From: Polytrichum commune
Lineage: Eukaryota; Streptophyta; Polytrichopsida; Polytrichales; Polytrichaceae
Assembly: GCA_950295325.1 (NCBI GenBank)
Contig: OX485803.1
Span: 10,416,001 to 10,480,000, forward strand
Direction of reading: 5' to 3'
DNA: 64,000 bases
In this document: positions 51,840 to 61,982 of the stretch, piece after piece
How the letters are laid out: each line of letters starts with the position of its first letter
Numbering within the stretch: position 1 is the first letter of the stretch
The notes under the pieces: model-generated
Databases searched by the model: none
The model's input: only the letters and a program-made list of their open reading frames with translations
Told to the model about the DNA's origin: nothing
Translations under genes and position numbers: made by a program

Positions 51840-54800
51840 TGCATATTATGTTTAGTGGTTCCTTTAGTGGTCTTGGTGCTTGTTTCTTTTCAAGTTTTCT
51901 TTTGTTTAGGATGATGTGTGGTAGGTATCGTATAGATATCTGATAAAAGTTTCCTATTAAATTTGGGATTTTATTGTGAAGAATCTTGAGATCTATAAGA
52001 ATTTGAGTGGTAGCAGTAATGGAGCCTCTATTCCTTGAAGTGATGATCTTTGGGGGGAGAACCATCCATCCTTGTTGGGTTAGTAAAGGTAGGAGTATGG
52101 GCCAATAGGGTGTTGGCTAGTGCGTTAAATGCCTTGTTATGTCTATTGGTGCAAAGGTTGTTTATGTGTTTTTGTGTTTATTCGTGTAGCATGATAGTAG
52201 ATGGAGGCAATTGTCATTTTCTTGTAATTTGCATAGGTTACAAAGTGGAGAGATGTCTTGTTTAGGGATGTGTTTTTTTGGGAAGTTTCCCAAGTATGAG
52301 CCATAGCGGAATTTCAGTACTTGTGTGATTTGGGCATCCGTGATCCATGATGTATCCCAAAATAGGTTAGACCATTTTAAATGTAGTTCATTGGTGGAAA
52401 GCCATTTTTTTCATTTGATATTGTGTTTGAGGCGTGTGATACAAGCGCACTTTGGTATTCTTTGTGCATGTAATTTTGTAGGCTTTTGAATGATCTATTG
52501 TGTTATTTCAAGGTGAGGAGGTTGGAGGGTCAAAATGGTGTTTCTATAATCTAGGGTTCTAATGTTTTCTTTCTTTTTTGGTTAGTTTGTATGTTTCATC
52601 GCTCCTTATGACATTCATGTGGGCTCTAATTGGAATGTTGTGTGAGGTATTTTGGATGGCATTGATTATGCTTGTGATGAGGAGTTTGTCTGGATGGTTG
52701 TCTAATGTGGTTAATTAGAAGGTACATGTTGTTGAGGCCCTTACCAGACGGACGGCAGGCAATTTCGCCGTGCATGCTAGGAAAACTTGTAGGCTTGCTA
52801 TAGCCACTTCACCCCAATCTCGCTAGAGCCATCACACGGGCGGCAGGAAGTTCCTCATCATTGACGACGACTAGGCACGGAGATTCGGCGAGAGAGGGCG
52901 GGAGAGAGCGGGAGAGGACGGTCTCGGTGGGCCAGGGGGTGGCCACCACCGGATTCCATGGGTTTCCGGTGGGAATCCCCTGGTAGTTCCGATGGCCTAA
53001 ATTCTTGGACACGTCATCATGCCTCCCCTCATAATGCTGCTTGTGTGGTAAGCGGCAAGGTTGCTCGGCCAATCAGGGCCACCGGTTCATGGAAGTTGCC
53101 GGTGGTGTGGCAAGGGCCTCACGCTATATGTCAAGATGAATGTGTCAGTGGTAAGTGACTTTGTGTGTGCTATTGCAATTAGTAATGCATATAATAATGC
53201 TCTTAGGATGTTCGCATAGCCAAGTAGTTTTATGGCCATGTGTATTTTTGTAATGGGTTGTTGAAGACCCCTAATTTTGCAGTGTTTCCTTCCATGTCCA
53301 GGGGTGTAAATGAGATGTTTGTGGAGTATGATTTTTTTTTTTGGGGGGGGGGATCTTTGTGGATGTAATGTGGTGATTTTGGATGGGAAAGGTGTGTGCT
53401 GTGCGGAAGGGGGGGAGGGTGGTGGTGTAGTGTTATGCCATTCTTTAGGGATTGTAGTGGATGGGGTGTGTGTTTGAGTGCACAAAAGTTGAGATGCACG
53501 TTTGGTTGTGTTTTTGTGAGATGATTACTATTGAGGTGAGGAGTGGTTTTTTGGTGTTGTAGTTTGAGGGGAACACGGTTGATTGTGGGTGTTGTACTAT
53601 TAGAGGGGACATCGTGATGATAGGTGTTACATTTGTTGGTTGGAGTGGGTTAAATGCATTTTGTGTCCAATCATCATGGTTTATGATTAGTACGGTGGTG
53701 GAGTTTGGGTCGGTTTGGGCTCCTAGTCTAGCCCATTTTATAGCTTTGGGACATCCTCTATGTTTAGTATATGTGCAAGGCCATGCCCATTCCATTGATT
53801 TGAGCCAAGTATGTTGATCCAAGAGAGCCAAAGACGTTATCTATGTCATGTGGGGAGTGATCTTGAGTGAATTTGGGCATGTGGGTGAGTTCAAACGTGT
53901 TGGTGAGGTTGTCTAGTATATATGAGGGGAGTGTTTGGTGGGTGGGTGGGGTAGTACTTGGGGGTGGTGTGCCAAGGTATTCAATATATCGGTTTATTAT
54001 TATGATTTTTTCCGTGGTGAAGTCTTGGGTTAGTGATGAAAGGATAAAGGTGTTTGTGGTTATATGTGTGGAGTATCGTTCCCATAGCCATGTGAGTCTT
54101 TCAAGTGGGATGAAAGCATAGTAGTTGCCTTTGTGGTCAAGAATTTTTGCAATGGGGAGAGATGGGAGGGATTTGTATCATGGGTTTGTTGGTGATGATG
54201 TACTTGTTTGAGCTACATGCATGAATGCTTATATCTAGATGTGGAATTAGTAAGGTGCACATGACAAGTTATAAATGTTGGTTTAAAGGCCATTATATGG
54301 GTAATGGGGATTCCCATTGGTTGGGTTTAGGTGTTTTGTCTAGTTTGTGTGATGAGGGCGGGAGGGGTGGTAGTTTTAGTTCATGTTGGGTGGGGTTTGG
54401 TCTATAGTACATGGTTGGGGAAAGAGGGCTACAATTTGTAGAAGTGCATTTTTCATTATATAGAATTTGGTATTATATTCTTGTTGGAATTTGTGGAAGG
54501 TTAGAATACGCGTGTTCATGAGACCTTGTATTCGAGGTACTAATGCTAGGTTGAGAGTGGCTAGTATTTTGAGGAATTGTTTTGAGTTAGTTTTTTGGTT
54601 GGGGTGAGAGTGTTGTAGAAGAGGTTTTTGAACAAGTTGTCTTGGAGGAGCCACTTGTTGAGTGGGGAATTTGGTATTACTGAGTTGATGTGTATTTGAA
54701 AGTTTTTTTTAGTATGTGGAGGCTAGGGATCTCACAATGGGGGCTCTACACATGCTTGTGAGTTGAAGTGTGGGAGGTGTTAAGCTCCTCCATATTTGGT

Positions 54801-57210
54801 GACTATGAATTTTGCTAGACCTTGGTACATTTGATTGGTTGGTCCTAGGTCATTAAAGTGTTTGGTTCAATTGTTCGCTAACATGGTGGCATATCTTGGA
54901 GGAGTGAGTGTGTTCCTATGCCGAATGCCTCTCTTAGTAGTTGAGTAAAGATGTTGGGGGTGTTTGTTGTGAGATTGTAGATGTATTTTGTGAGTTTGAT
55001 GAGTAGTGTGTCCATTCTCCTAATGTTTGGAATTGAGAACAAGGTTGCATAGATCCAATACAAGGCTTACCCACTCGACGCCATTAAACTTATAGGCAAC
55101 ATATATTGGGGAGCATCCACGTCCTTCTAGGGAGCCAGATTCACAGCCACTCCTCTAATCCAAATCATACGAGGCAATGTTTCTCATAGGGCAGAAGCCT
55201 TCTTGGCTATGGTGTAGGATTCTATGATGTTCTCCAAATGTGGTGAGTAGGGAGGTTAGCGTGCTTGTGAAGGGTTTGTATATGGTGCAAGCCAATGCAA
55301 TTGGGTTCATAATTGGTGACTATGATGGGGTTGTCTTTCTCGTGTAGTAAGATGGTGCTACTATGTTTCCATTCCTTGGGTATGGCAAATTGGTGGTAGC
55401 ATTGTAGGAAAATAGGAACATCATATCATGAAGGTTGTTGGGTAGGGCTTTTAGGATGTCACTTGGGATTCCATCTGGGCATAGGGCCTTTCGTTTAAGA
55501 AGGTTTTTGAGGCATGTGTTGTATGTGGTTTTGTTCAACATTTGGGTTAAGGTGGCTTGAGGGCTGGTTATTTTTCTAACTTACATCTTTTATTAATTTG
55601 CCATGGATATTGTCTAATTGCTCAAATACATTCAAAGGGATGGTCTACTAGGTTCGAGCATAGAGGGGCTTCACTGTTGATTGATTATGTTTGTGTATTA
55701 TATGTGATGTTGGATGCAATGTCTGGATGTGTGGCTAGATTGCCATTGTTGTGTATAAGACTCTAATTGGGTAGCATGTTGTGGATTGAAGATTTTTGTG
55801 TAATTTTTTGGTAATTTTTCTGATGTTTAATGGTATTTGTATCAATCTTGCAATTTTGTGTGGTTTGGTTGGTGGTAATTTTCTTGGCTTCATGTTTTGC
55901 TTATTTTTCTATTTTTGCTTGTGATATGTTCTATCCATTGTTGGGGTTCATGTGAGTTGTTGGAGTGTAAGGGGGGAGGAGGGGAGGGATGTTGGGAATG
56001 CTTCGTACTTTGGATGCTTGGTTGGGTGTGCCATTGGGGGTGTGTTGGGAGGGCGGTGTCTCTTATAACTTGTTTGATGAGATGGTATGTGTTGAGGTGT
56101 TTATTTCATTGTTTTAATTTGTTGCAAGGTAGGAATTCACCTTGTTGTTTTGTTTGTGGGGTGGGCATTAGGGACTCGGGGGTTGCGAATGTTTGTATGG
56201 CACAATCGCTAATGGAATGTATTTTAAGGTTGATTAATTCTTGTGCTTCAATCCATTCTTTAGGGGGTAAGGTTGTGGTTTCTTGTAGTGAGTTGACAAA
56301 TATGGGTGAAGTTGAGTTCGATGAATTTAGTTAGGAATGCATTTATGTTCATTGATGGTATTGGGTATATGTATTGGGCCATAGAGCCGGTTTGTGTTAC
56401 ATGTGTTCTTCTTACACGGTGATGAAGGGGGGGGGGGGTGACTGGGAAGTGGTCTAAGTTGAGGTTGATGTGTGTGTTTGTTTGACATTGTTGATGGTTG
56501 CAGTCCTTCATGGGGATGTAAAAGTTGTCTACTAGTATTGGGGAATGTGTTGGATACATGTTGATTATTAGTTCAATTGTTGATTGTATGAGGTGTAGGT
56601 CTTCTTCATACGATGGCATGTACATGTGGACGAGGAATATAAGTGTGAGAGGTTTATAATTTGGAGGTATGGGGTTAGTTCTTTGGGGGTTGTCATCTTG
56701 GTGATGTTTCTAGTATAGGCAATTGTTTTATGTATCATTGTAAGGAGGCCTCCTTGGGTGGGGTGATATATAGAATATATGGTCTTCTTAGGCATGTGAT
56801 GGCGTTGGTTGTGTTGTTGTAGATGATTTTGTTTGATGGGAATTGGACATCTTCAAATCACGTGGTTTTGTTTCTTGGCAAATTTGTTTCTTTGATGCAA
56901 ATAATTTATGAGGGGTGCCATTAATGTTGGCACTCTGGTGGAGGTCTTGTAGGTTGGTGCTAATGTGGGCATAGTTCCAAGTGAGGTAAGTGATTGGGGT
57001 ATTTGAAGTGGAGTTTTGTTGGTTGGGGGGGGGGTGTTGATAGGTTGGTGTGTAGTATGTGAGAAGCCTTGTATTGGATCTAATATGTTTAAGGCTTCTT
57101 GGACTTCTTGGAATACTTGGGGTGGGTAAGCTGGGAATTATTGTTGGATTATGTAGGTATGGTGTTGTTTGTGACAATGTTTGAGCCATTTGTTCACACT
57201 TCTCGGAGAG
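51840..57210 (-). mobile_element. Degenerate non-LTR retrotransposon (LINE), minus strand
   Basis: Read on the minus strand from about 57.2 kb. An endonuclease-like part at about 56.8-56.3 kb gives QGGLLTMIHKTIAYTRNITK and MYMPSYEEDLHLIQSTIELI. A reverse-transcriptase part at 55541-55320 gives NTCLKNLLKRKALCPDGIPS, the 'K-A-P-G-P-D-G-I' motif of LINE RTs in altered form. 55063-54878 gives IPNIRRMDTLLIKLTKYI. 53.8-53.4 kb looks like the RNase H/C-terminal part. 52.05-51.85 kb gives ITSRNRGSITATT and NKRKLEKKQ, alignable with the LINE fragment at 61.0-61.15 kb. Stops and shifts throughout show it is inactive. A GC-rich element interrupts it at 52734-53120. The catalytic Asp-Asp pair was not seen intact. 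Confidence 0.75.
52734..53120. mobile_element. GC-rich TIR insertion inside the LINE
   Basis: Ends gaggcccttaccagacgg and (complement of right end) gaggcccttgccacacc are inverse. The inside is far more GC-rich than the LINE on either side. It contains frames of 87 and 66 codons that look fortuitous. No clear target duplication found. Confidence 0.55.
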
Positions 57211-58746: not shown

Positions 58747-58763
58747 TTTCATGGGACCATATA

Positions 58764-59131
58764 GATAGATAGAAACTCCGGTCCCTTTTTAGCAAGGGGC
58801 CGGCGTGAATAAAGTGTCCGTTCGTAATGTCAATGACCCGATGCCCACCGGACAAGGGGACATTGGGGCAATACTACTCTCCCCTTTTGAGGATGGGCAC
58901 TATAGTGACACACTATACTAGTTCCTAGCTAGCCACTAGTGCCTTGAAGATACCGGACATGGTATCCCCCCAAAGGGCTTTGAGGTACCCATACAACAAG
59001 GTCCAAGGACCCCCCACCATAGTTGGGTGGACTAAGGTGGTGAGCACCACACCGGCATGGGGAATAAAACCCACAACCTCCTCATTGGGGGCCATGAGCC
59101 CTAACCACCAAGCCAAGGCCCGTGGTGCCTC
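58764..59131 (-). mobile_element. tRNA-derived SINE
   Basis: On the minus strand the element starts gaggcaccacgggccttggc. It carries an A-box-like TGGCTTGGTGGTTAGGGC and a B-box-like GTGGGTTTTATTCCCC about 40 bases on, the RNA polymerase III promoter layout of tRNA-type SINEs. It ends ggaccggagtttctatctat, a (TATC)n tail. The 17-bp direct repeat TTTCATGGGACCATATA flanks it exactly (58747-58763 and 59132-59148). Its last roughly 125 bp match the 3' end of the LINE fragment at 61541-61664. The reading frames inside are not genes. Confidence 0.92.
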
Positions 59132-59586
59132 TTTCATGGGACCATATATTACACGAGCATAACTCTCCTTTAATTCAGGGGTTCCCAGTTTATGGGGAGC
59201 ACTCATGTTCTAGACTTTGAGCCTTTCAAAAGGCATATGTAAATTATCAAAGATTTTTTTAATTGCAGCACGTCTTTCTTTGGAAATAAACCATCATGTA
59301 GGTACTTAAAAAATTCAATTTTTTTTTTTTATACCACTCGATTAAATAGAAAGGTCAATTGTTATGCGAACATTTTGTTGGTGCTGGTAGGATATGGGTA
59401 TTTGAGGATATTGGTGTTTTGAATGTCATGTGAGATTATATACAAGTCAAGAACCTTCACACTTGGGTAAATCACTCTAGTATGGATATCGTATCAAGGT
59501 AGTATTGATCCAAGTAGTGATTATGGACGATATACAAATCTCTCTCTCTCTCTCTCTTCATACCCACAAGGTAGCAATTTATCTAA

Positions 59587-59965
59587 CTACACTAAATATG
59601 ATATTTAGTGTCACCAATTCTAATTGTCTTGCTCAATACTAATTGCAAACCACGGTGTAGTGTCACCAACACTAAATGTTAACGTAGCATTATTTGTCAT
59701 GCCTTGTAAAATTTTGGGAGATTATAGATTTACAGTAATGCAATTATTGTCACTTACCAAGTGATTTATCATCCAAGTGTCAATCATCCATCACAATAGT
59801 TCATCACAAGTTGTTGACAAGAGAAAGTAGGGTTTTGACCAATGGATGAACTCATTCATCATCCATGACAATATTTGTTCACTTACTCATAAGAAGCATG
59901 GGATCTGAAAAGTTACCATAGTGACATTAAATACCATATGACACTTAATATCATATTTAGTGTAG
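59587..59965 (+). mobile_element. MITE, 'ctacactaaatat' family, copy D
   Basis: Complete 379-bp copy with long perfect ends ctacactaaatatgatattt / tcatatttagtgtag. The best reference copy in this window for the family. Confidence 0.85.
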
Positions 59966-60284
59966 TCTTTCAATTTTGAGATTGGTATACCATTGGTGAT
60001 ATTGTGTATGGATATCATGCATTCACATCTATACCGGTCCAATATCGGTTTATTTCTTTGCGACTGCTTTCAATTAGTTTTGAAAGAAACTTGTGAAACC
60101 AATAATTTGCCAACACATCGTTGCTACAATACTTGTTCTAGAATGTGCTTGTGAGAATAATTCTAAATATCCATAAGAAATCTCTTCACAAGTTTTTTGT
60201 CCTTGGAATAAACATATGCTCAATCAAATGCCCTTCAGAGAGTGCCATGAACTTGTGTGAAACAACAATTAAAAGAAACAAAAA

Positions 60285-61982
60285 CTAGACTAAATATGAT
60301 ATTTAGTGTCACTTATTCCAATTGTCTTGCTCAATACTAATTGTAAGCCGCAGTGTAGTGTCATCGACACTAAATAATGAAATATCCAATAACTTTTGGT
60401 CTAATCCTGCAATTACAGATTCACAAAAAACAAGCCTACTAAAATTCCGTCCTGGACAATACATGGGAAATGCTAGAAAACAACTATTTTTTGGCATAGA
60501 AAGATTTCATCAATAACATGCCCGATTTGCAACTCCTTTGATGCAGACACATGGCTCCATGTACTCCTAAAATGTAATCAACACCACATACATGCCCTTA
60601 GAACCAAAAGACATAACAAAGCGGTATGGGAACTAAGAAAATTAATTTTATCATCACAAAAATCAAGATGCTACACCCTCATGAATGCAGGGACATTTAA
60701 CAACAACCCACAAGAAAATACAGTCCCCCTATGGCTCCTACCTTGTACATGCAGACAACAGAGATGTCACTGCAACGCCATATTCAAACCTTATCTACTA
60801 TGTATTAAAGAACTTCCACACCAAAGTACTCCACCAATAAACCTGGCAGACAATCTCACCATACAATTTATTGAATTCACATACACAAATGACAGATTCT
60901 CACAAGATACAATAAAAAATTAAATTAAAAAGTATCAACCATTAATTAATAACATCATTCACCAAGGATGGAAAGTAAATCCACTTATAGTCATCTCAGC
61001 TGGTGCTAGAGGTACTACGCAGGTCCCATCAATGAAACAACTGGAAACAAATTTTAAATTATCTGAAACTTTTGTCAAACACACATTTAAAGAAACAAGC
61101 ACTATTGCTATACAATATGCCGGATCAATCCTTCTACATAAAAGATGAATAGAAAACAACCAATCAATACCAATAGAATAAAAAGAGGGGGTAGTGGTGA
61201 AGACCACTATCTGTTTTAAACAATTAGCACAGTGTCACCACTTGTCTCAGGAAGATGGGTAGGGGCTGGTTGGTTGGTACAACTTTTCTGCCTATGATAA
61301 ATTCACTAGTAGCACCAAGTCATGGATATTACAATAACGCTCAGATGGACCCAACATGAATCGAACCCGGTCTGTATAATTGTAACACAAACATCCTCCT
61401 CCAACCAACCTAGGAACCATGACTTCGCGACCATCAACATAATAAACTTCGTTTTATACCATTACAAATGATGTAAATACTTGATAATGGCTACTGTGCG
61501 TTACTTTTACTTGTTTCTGGTTACTAAAGTGTTTATTCCCGGAAGGGGAGAGTAGTCTTGTACCAATGTTCCTTTGCCCGGTGGGCACTGGCACATTGTC
61601 AAGACGAACAAACACTTTATTCACGTTGGCCTTGCAAGAGGACCGGAGTTTCTATCTATCTATCTCACCGACACTAAACATTGTCCTAAGAGTATTTCTC
61701 ATTCCTTGTTAACGTATTTGGGCATTATAGATTTACAGGGTTGCAAGTTTTGTCACTTACTAAGTGATTTTTCATTCACATTTCAATCATTCATGACAAT
61801 ATTTCATCACAAAATTGCTAGTATGCAAATTATATCAGTTTGTTTCAATAATTGACATTTGGATGAACTGAAAGTAAGTGGGGATAACAATATAAGTAAA
61901 CTTATTCATACAAAGTGTCACTACATAAATTACCACAATGACATAAAATGCCATATAACACTAAACATCATATTTACGGTAG
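60285..61982 (+). mobile_element. MITE copy E, split by a retrotransposon
   Basis: The left part (60285-60374) runs from the family's 5' end to 'gacactaaa'. The right part (from 61665) resumes at 'tcaccgacactaaa' and reaches the family's 3' end at 61982. The two parts fit together as one MITE with 'tca(t/c)cgacactaaa' duplicated by the insertion of 60375-61664. Confidence 0.82.
60375..61664 (+). mobile_element. 5'-truncated LINE insertion with (TATC)n 3' end
   Basis: A roughly 1.29-kb insertion inside a MITE, flanked by a 14-bp direct repeat with one mismatch (60361-60374, 61665-61678). Coding remnants near 60690-60800 read NPQENTVPLWLLPCTC with a C-x-C...C-x-C pattern. Remnants at about 60955-61160 read QGWKVNPLIVISAGARGTTQ, with an in-frame stop later, so this is the C-terminal end of a LINE protein. 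The 3' untranslated part ends tctatctatctatc. The start has no 5' end features, as expected from aborted reverse transcription. Confidence 0.82.

Follow-up and report, generated by a model that had tools for sequence, protein, structure and literature searches.

LINEs of the L1 type in plants possess an L1-clade reverse transcriptase (RT) and a poly(A) 3' end and have no restriction-like endonuclease (RLE); plant RTE elements have a (TTG)n-type 3' end and encode a short protein with APE-type endonuclease and RT. According to a 2022 review, L1 and RTE are the only LINE superfamilies of land plants (PMC9033089). The few SINE-LINE pairs of land plants compiled by Ohshima are likewise RTE- and L1-tailed only, with tobacco TS paired with RTE and maize ZmSINE2/3 with LINE1-1 (PMC3747384). 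In Chlamydomonas, the SINEs SINEX-1/2/4/5/6_CR are paired with RandI/Dualen LINEs (PMC3747384, Table 1). What defines this group of LINEs is that APE and RLE, hence two endonucleases, occur together (PMC3636483, PMC4640811); RNase H has likewise been described for it. Such LINEs are well known from green algae. No report of Dualen/RandI elements in land plants was found in the literature searched, which lay outside Repbase and most subscription papers.

Here we describe a window, i.e., the whole analysed stretch of 64,000 nucleotides, from the moss Polytrichum commune (contig OX485803.1, positions 10,416,001 to 10,480,000), which contains a SINE and a LINE fragment with a common 3' end. The initial annotation had suggested that the two are partners. 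We consider it very likely that they represent a SINE-LINE partner pair, in which an autonomous moss LINE of Dualen/RandI type is accompanied by a SINE copied via a captured tail. The following elements and boundaries were identified:

58747-58763, no strand: left copy of the SINE target-site duplication (TTTCATGGGACCATATA, exact 17-bp repeat)
58764-59131, minus strand: full-length tRNA-derived SINE, with its (TATC)n 3' end on the left of the plus strand
59132-59148, no strand: right copy of the SINE target-site duplication (TTTCATGGGACCATATA, exact 17-bp repeat)
58764-58909, minus strand: SINE tail derived from a LINE (nt 223-368 of the SINE), 77% identical to the neighbouring LINE tail
60361-60374, no strand: left copy of the target-site duplication of the LINE fragment (TCATCGACACTAAA)
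60375-61664, plus strand: 5'-truncated copy of the partner LINE (ORF2 end, 3' UTR and tail), delimited by full-span relatives of 77-95% identity and target-site duplications
61520-61664, plus strand: conserved structured LINE 3' tail with (TATC)n (alignment, conservation and fold)
61665-61678, no strand: right copy of the target-site duplication of the LINE fragment (TCACCGACACTAAA, 13/14 matching the left copy)

Both elements had been placed exactly to the base, and both are bounded by target-site duplications. SINE nt 223-368 align with positions 61520-61660 of the window at 113 of 146 identical positions (77%, 5 gap positions, E=1e-28); the shared 3' end is thus confirmed, although the stretch, of ~146 bp, is slightly longer than the ~125 bp originally claimed. 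The local score is 122, whereas 500 dinucleotide shuffles never exceeded 25; the match is far above this background, which rules out chance similarity. The 16-mer GGGGAGAGTAGTNTTG inside the tails occurs exactly twice in the window, once per tail (chance expectation 0.07 with two mismatches allowed), and the closest LINE tail found genome-wide is 89.5% identical to that of the SINE. For the 22-nt tail end GGGACCGGAGTTTCTATCTATC there are 848 exact genome copies vs none for the reversed control. Among the first 30 places listed, all on the largest contig, 13 terminate a SINE and 17 a LINE or a truncated tail. Both families terminate in TATC repeats genome-wide, as had been proposed.

The host assembly comprises 408 Mb in seven large contigs, and all genome copy numbers of SINE and LINE given here are lower bounds. 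Besides the repeats, we noted three LEAFY copies and, clustered within 95 kb, at least 14 chlorophyll a/b-binding protein genes that are nearly identical to one another (G000:C5:1751760-1846160). One of the LEAFY copies has its best PDB match in 4bhk, the Physcomitrella protein (202 bits vs 182 for Arabidopsis LEAFY). The residues D312 and C345, which we take to be of the moss type, are present in two of the three copies; the third (L071, G000:C1:40571878) has H and R at those positions, and its other exon match contains a stop. The LEAFY genes point to a moss as host, and a set of seven chromosomes would perhaps suit Polytrichaceae.

Three further features belong to the LINE side of the window:

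60477-61145, plus strand: stop-broken C-terminal remnant of a restriction-like endonuclease (CCHC, RHN, KPY for KPD, and IEF; alignment)
61340-61425, minus strand: tRNA-like block lying antisense within the LINE 3' UTR, with the B box GGTTCGATTC and retained across subfamilies
52012-57021, minus strand: older decayed relative of the LINE, from APE to the C-terminus, by colinear tblastx matches (element of about 51.8-57.2 kb)

The coding remnant of the LINE fragment corresponds to the C-terminal end of ORF2 and was assigned to the RLE region on the basis of the R2 profile, which places the LINE C-termini first. With stops and KPY substituted for KPD, the fragment itself is dead. It has more than 30 genome copies that cover most of its span at 77-95% identity, and the C-terminal protein has 5405 candidate places in the genome. 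The initial annotation had considered the element at 51.8-57.2 kb to be of the same kind: the tblastx matches are colinear over the whole coding region, in agreement with this, but the element belongs to an older family, and no TATC array was found in it by the repeat scan. At 52.6-53.1 kb, this decayed element seems to be interrupted by sequence that differs in character and is richer in G+C. The LINE fragment is surrounded, at 59.59-62.0 kb, by repeats resembling ACTAAATATGATATTTAGTGTCAC; these may be a MITE or some other repeat into which the LINE was inserted.

Long open frames were found among the relatives of the LINE only, and none for the SINE, as anticipated for a partner pair. Two intact copies, L069 and L070, encode ORF2 of 2919 and 2924 codons and belong to subfamilies 63% identical in protein. 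Altogether, Pfam identified an APE-type endonuclease, RT, a PCIF1-like domain and RNase H in the intact LINE. The APE domain (PF03372) was recognised with 7.1e-7 in the best copy and 1.3e-5 in L069, and RNase H (PF00075) with 1.5e-14. L070 gave no Pfam match for APE, though the active-site motifs of APE, as well as those of RT and RNase H, are intact in both copies. Compared with solved structures, the RT profile is closest to the R2 protein (PDB 8gh6, 9nl2, 9nl3, 9dou), with 2.9e-33, followed by L1 with 5e-21.

The C-terminus of the LINE protein deserves separate consideration. Both intact copies contain, in this order, C-x2-C-x9-H-x4-C, RHNK, [KR]PD, FIEF and K..KY, which is the order of motifs in the restriction-like endonuclease of R2, where zinc-knuckle, RHN and KPD likewise follow one another. 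When 2360 ORFs of at least 50 residues were ranked with an R2 RLE profile (R2 C-termini taken from PDB), the top 26 were all LINE C-termini, and a single chance ORF appeared at the bottom of the list. These E-values, 0.009 to 1.7 within this small set, are modest. We weighed whether the LINE could instead be a divergent APE-type element outside Dualen, the zinc-knuckle domain of which is no functional restriction-like endonuclease. Such a reading draws on the weak profile scores, including a profile-profile comparison of the LINE C-terminus with R2 RLE (hhalign probability 11%, though P=0.0028), on the fact that the C-terminal profile by itself retrieved no PDB entry, and on the distance from KPD to the acidic residue, which exceeds that in R2; the co-occurrence of five R2-like motifs in the same order in both intact copies and an RT nearer to R2 than to L1 make it improbable. 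A single-sequence AlphaFold model of the endonuclease remnant in the window reached a pLDDT of 37 and was not used.

We favour a dual-endonuclease (APE and RLE) LINE of predicted Dualen/RandI type, where the class denotes domain content, the RT having been compared with solved structures, and where the RLE is assigned by motifs and weak profiles, outside any Pfam model. An affiliation with plant L1 is ruled out by the RT closer to R2, the TATC tail and the RLE-like C-terminus, and one with plant RTE by the TATC tail and a frame of ~2900 codons with RNase H and RLE-like domain. The initial annotation was right to call the TATC end unusual for a plant L1; the reason is that this LINE does not belong to L1, as its protein combines APE with RLE and has an RT closer to R2. 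R2 differs from the moss LINE in that it has no APE and no RNase H and is target-specific, whereas the insertion sites of the LINE are dispersed.

The original Chlamydomonas Dualen of Kojima and Fujiwara (2005) reportedly carries a cysteine protease. In the LINE, no Pfam peptidase family was found at E up to 0.1, a threshold at which a divergent protease could escape detection. The protease is also absent from the definition of the Dualen/RandI group in PMC3636483 and PMC4640811. With that group, the moss LINE has in common APE and RLE, RT and RNase H. It departs from it in that its constrained coding region opens with a 2A motif, that it has a PCIF1-like domain, that a protease was looked for and not found, and that its host is a land plant.

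In one subfamily, five copies show the putative 2A motif as either GDIETNPGP or GDIEINPGP (LLLLLSGDIETNPGP), and GDIKPNPGP is found at this position in the other. The former fits the StopGo consensus (D/G/C/N)(V/I)ExNPGP (PMC12846837). An excess of third-position changes, indicating coding constraint, starts at the 2A motif and is absent upstream. In two diverged intact copies, ~570-580 codons upstream of it are open (L069:582-2327, L070:601-2340); we do not treat them as coding, because they show no third-position excess and a protein identity of only 21-29%. Most LINE copies have no in-frame ATG close upstream of 2A, and Met follows directly after NPGP. Further upstream, an ORF1-like frame precedes ORF2 (L069:1-669, L070:3-677), with 28% identity between subfamilies and a coiled-coil-like composition; its 5' end lies beyond the stretch examined. 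A match of E=6e-4 links the PCIF1-like domain to human PCIF1 (6irv), but methyltransferase activity is doubtful, as HPPN or HPHN is aligned with the NPPF of PCIF1.

The head of the SINE contains two promoter-like elements:

59105-59115, minus strand: A-box-like pol III promoter element TGGCTTGGTGG, read from the sequence
59061-59071, minus strand: B-box-like pol III promoter element, GGTTTTATTCC in the window copy and GGTTCTATTCC in the 18-copy consensus

Since ARAGORN called no tRNA gene on the SINE, its tRNA origin, claimed by the initial annotation, rests on these two boxes, which are seen in the 18-copy consensus; Rfam and ARAGORN returned nothing for either element. There is no ORF, and the A and B boxes are combined with a LINE-type 3' end and target-site duplications, as is typical of SINEs. 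Out of 1757 candidate places, at least 40 were scored at 98-100% identity to the window copy. In full-length copies, target-site duplications of 11-17 bp lie a constant distance apart (363-366 nt, or about 360-366 nt in round figures), and one copy is shortened to 275 nt. Most of the sampled copies are 97-99% identical, and the SINE is one young family.

LINE copies are flanked by target-site duplications of 11-14 bp and are 5'-truncated at variable lengths of 80-2714 nt. In both families, nearly all duplications start with T and merge into the TATC repeat, which fits one machinery, with target-primed reverse transcription from a UAUC end. As a separate observation, two LINE 3' ends of equal score (L016/L017, G000:C5:321776-325154) lie ~800 bp apart in diverging inverted orientation, perhaps an inverted duplication.

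Could the SINE, with its LINE-derived tail, have been moved by other machinery, such as an L1 or RTE of the same genome? The LINE types examined in the genome were the dual-endonuclease family and its relatives, which leaves this idea some room. However, the 3' end of the SINE is neither poly(A) nor (TTG)n; most sampled copies retain the TATC end and the structured tail, with 97-99% identity, and the SINE duplications are like the LINE ones both in length and in their first base. We regard mobilisation by such another element as very improbable.

Slightly less probable still is a transfer in the opposite direction, by which the LINE acquired the 3' end of an older SINE. The LINE 3' UTR does contain another tRNA-like block, the antisense one listed above, which lies ~290 nt before the LINE end with a perfect B box, occupies the same place in L069 and L030 and may represent either a former SINE or an element with a function; this block is dissimilar to the SINE head. 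Against such a transfer, the shared tail forms the terminus of LINE subfamilies down to 63% protein identity, and the SINE family is a single and young one. Between LINE subfamilies, 50-nt windows of the last ~140 nt are 62-98% identical vs 37-61% in the preceding ~100 nt. The initial annotation had itself raised the idea of an unrelated third repeat inserted independently at both element ends, and this is the least credible of all: stand-alone tails with their own duplications do exist (L042, L052, L061), but their variable 5' ends are those expected from 5' truncation, of which they are the shortest products, in every LINE subfamily examined the tail invariably ends the element exactly, directly beside the target-site duplication, its divergence follows the subfamilies, and no duplication separates it from the body.

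The shared tail was also analysed for RNA structure, with a terminal hairpin in each element:

58775-58806, minus strand: terminal RNA hairpin of the SINE tail (fold and pair counts)
61623-61649, plus strand: terminal RNA hairpin of the LINE tail (fold and pair counts)

Aligned with 22 LINE tails, the SINE tail gives a common predicted fold with a closed multi-stem domain, in which AGUGUCC pairs with GGACACU, followed by a terminal hairpin of CCGGCCC with GGG-A-CCGG and a loop of variable length. Over 38 base pairs, pairing is kept in 98.2% of cells and drops to 43-46% after a one-column slide, and 21 cells with both bases changed were counted vs 6.1 in shuffles. The double changes are the stronger evidence, because the structure came from the same alignment, which biases the slide control towards the structure. 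Fold z-scores of single sequences were -1.6 for the SINE, -4.1 for the window LINE and -3.5 and -2.6 for further sequences. These comparisons support a folded RNA domain with covarying pairs.

The position of the tail, the duplications, the conservation across subfamilies and the covariation are in favour of the partner pair, and suggest the following mechanism. It is very probable that the LINE protein recognises its own RNA by the folded last ~140 nt, an end that would consist of the closed multi-stem domain, the 3'-terminal hairpin and UAUC repeats. It would nick the target DNA and reverse-transcribe from the UAUC end, by target-primed reverse transcription. A tRNA-derived unit, presumably transcribed by pol III, would have acquired this 3' domain and become the SINE, to be copied by the LINE protein in trans; the SINE has copied the LINE tail and hence probably borrows the LINE copying machinery. 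A more far-reaching version is possible and, taken as a whole, rather unlikely: that a dual-endonuclease LINE is still mobile in a land plant, with an added 2A and a PCIF1-like domain of altered motif (cap-adenine methyltransferase fold), with its two endonucleases used for the two strand cuts, and with recognition of a structured 3' domain of ~140 nt that was captured by a SINE.

Among known pairs, the Chlamydomonas SINEX elements resemble the moss SINE in a 3' end matching RandI/Dualen and in short microsatellite-like repeats instead of poly(A). They differ by their green-algal host and by (ATT)n or (CTTT)n where the moss SINE has (TATC)n, and SINEX-1, -2 and -4 are, unlike the moss SINE, of no known promoter origin. 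Tobacco TS and maize ZmSINE2/3 share with the moss pair a tRNA-derived SINE and a structured or specific LINE 3' end, but their partners are of the RTE or L1 clade with other 3' repeats, and the shared end in maize is ~45 nt vs ~146 nt in the moss. As the SINE-LINE principle is known, and Dualen pairing is known from an alga, what looks new, in a comparison made outside Repbase, is that the host is a land plant, that the tail is (TATC)n and that the domain set includes 2A and a PCIF1-like domain.

If true, the partner pair would widen the range of Dualen-type elements, and of the SINEs that parasitise them, from green algae to land plants. The shared RNA domain offers a well-defined system for testing template choice by a protein of this kind, and the LINE also allows one to ask what purpose two endonucleases serve in one protein. 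Should the LINE indeed be still mobile, the moss would provide a natural system, compact in size, in which stringent template recognition could be dissected.
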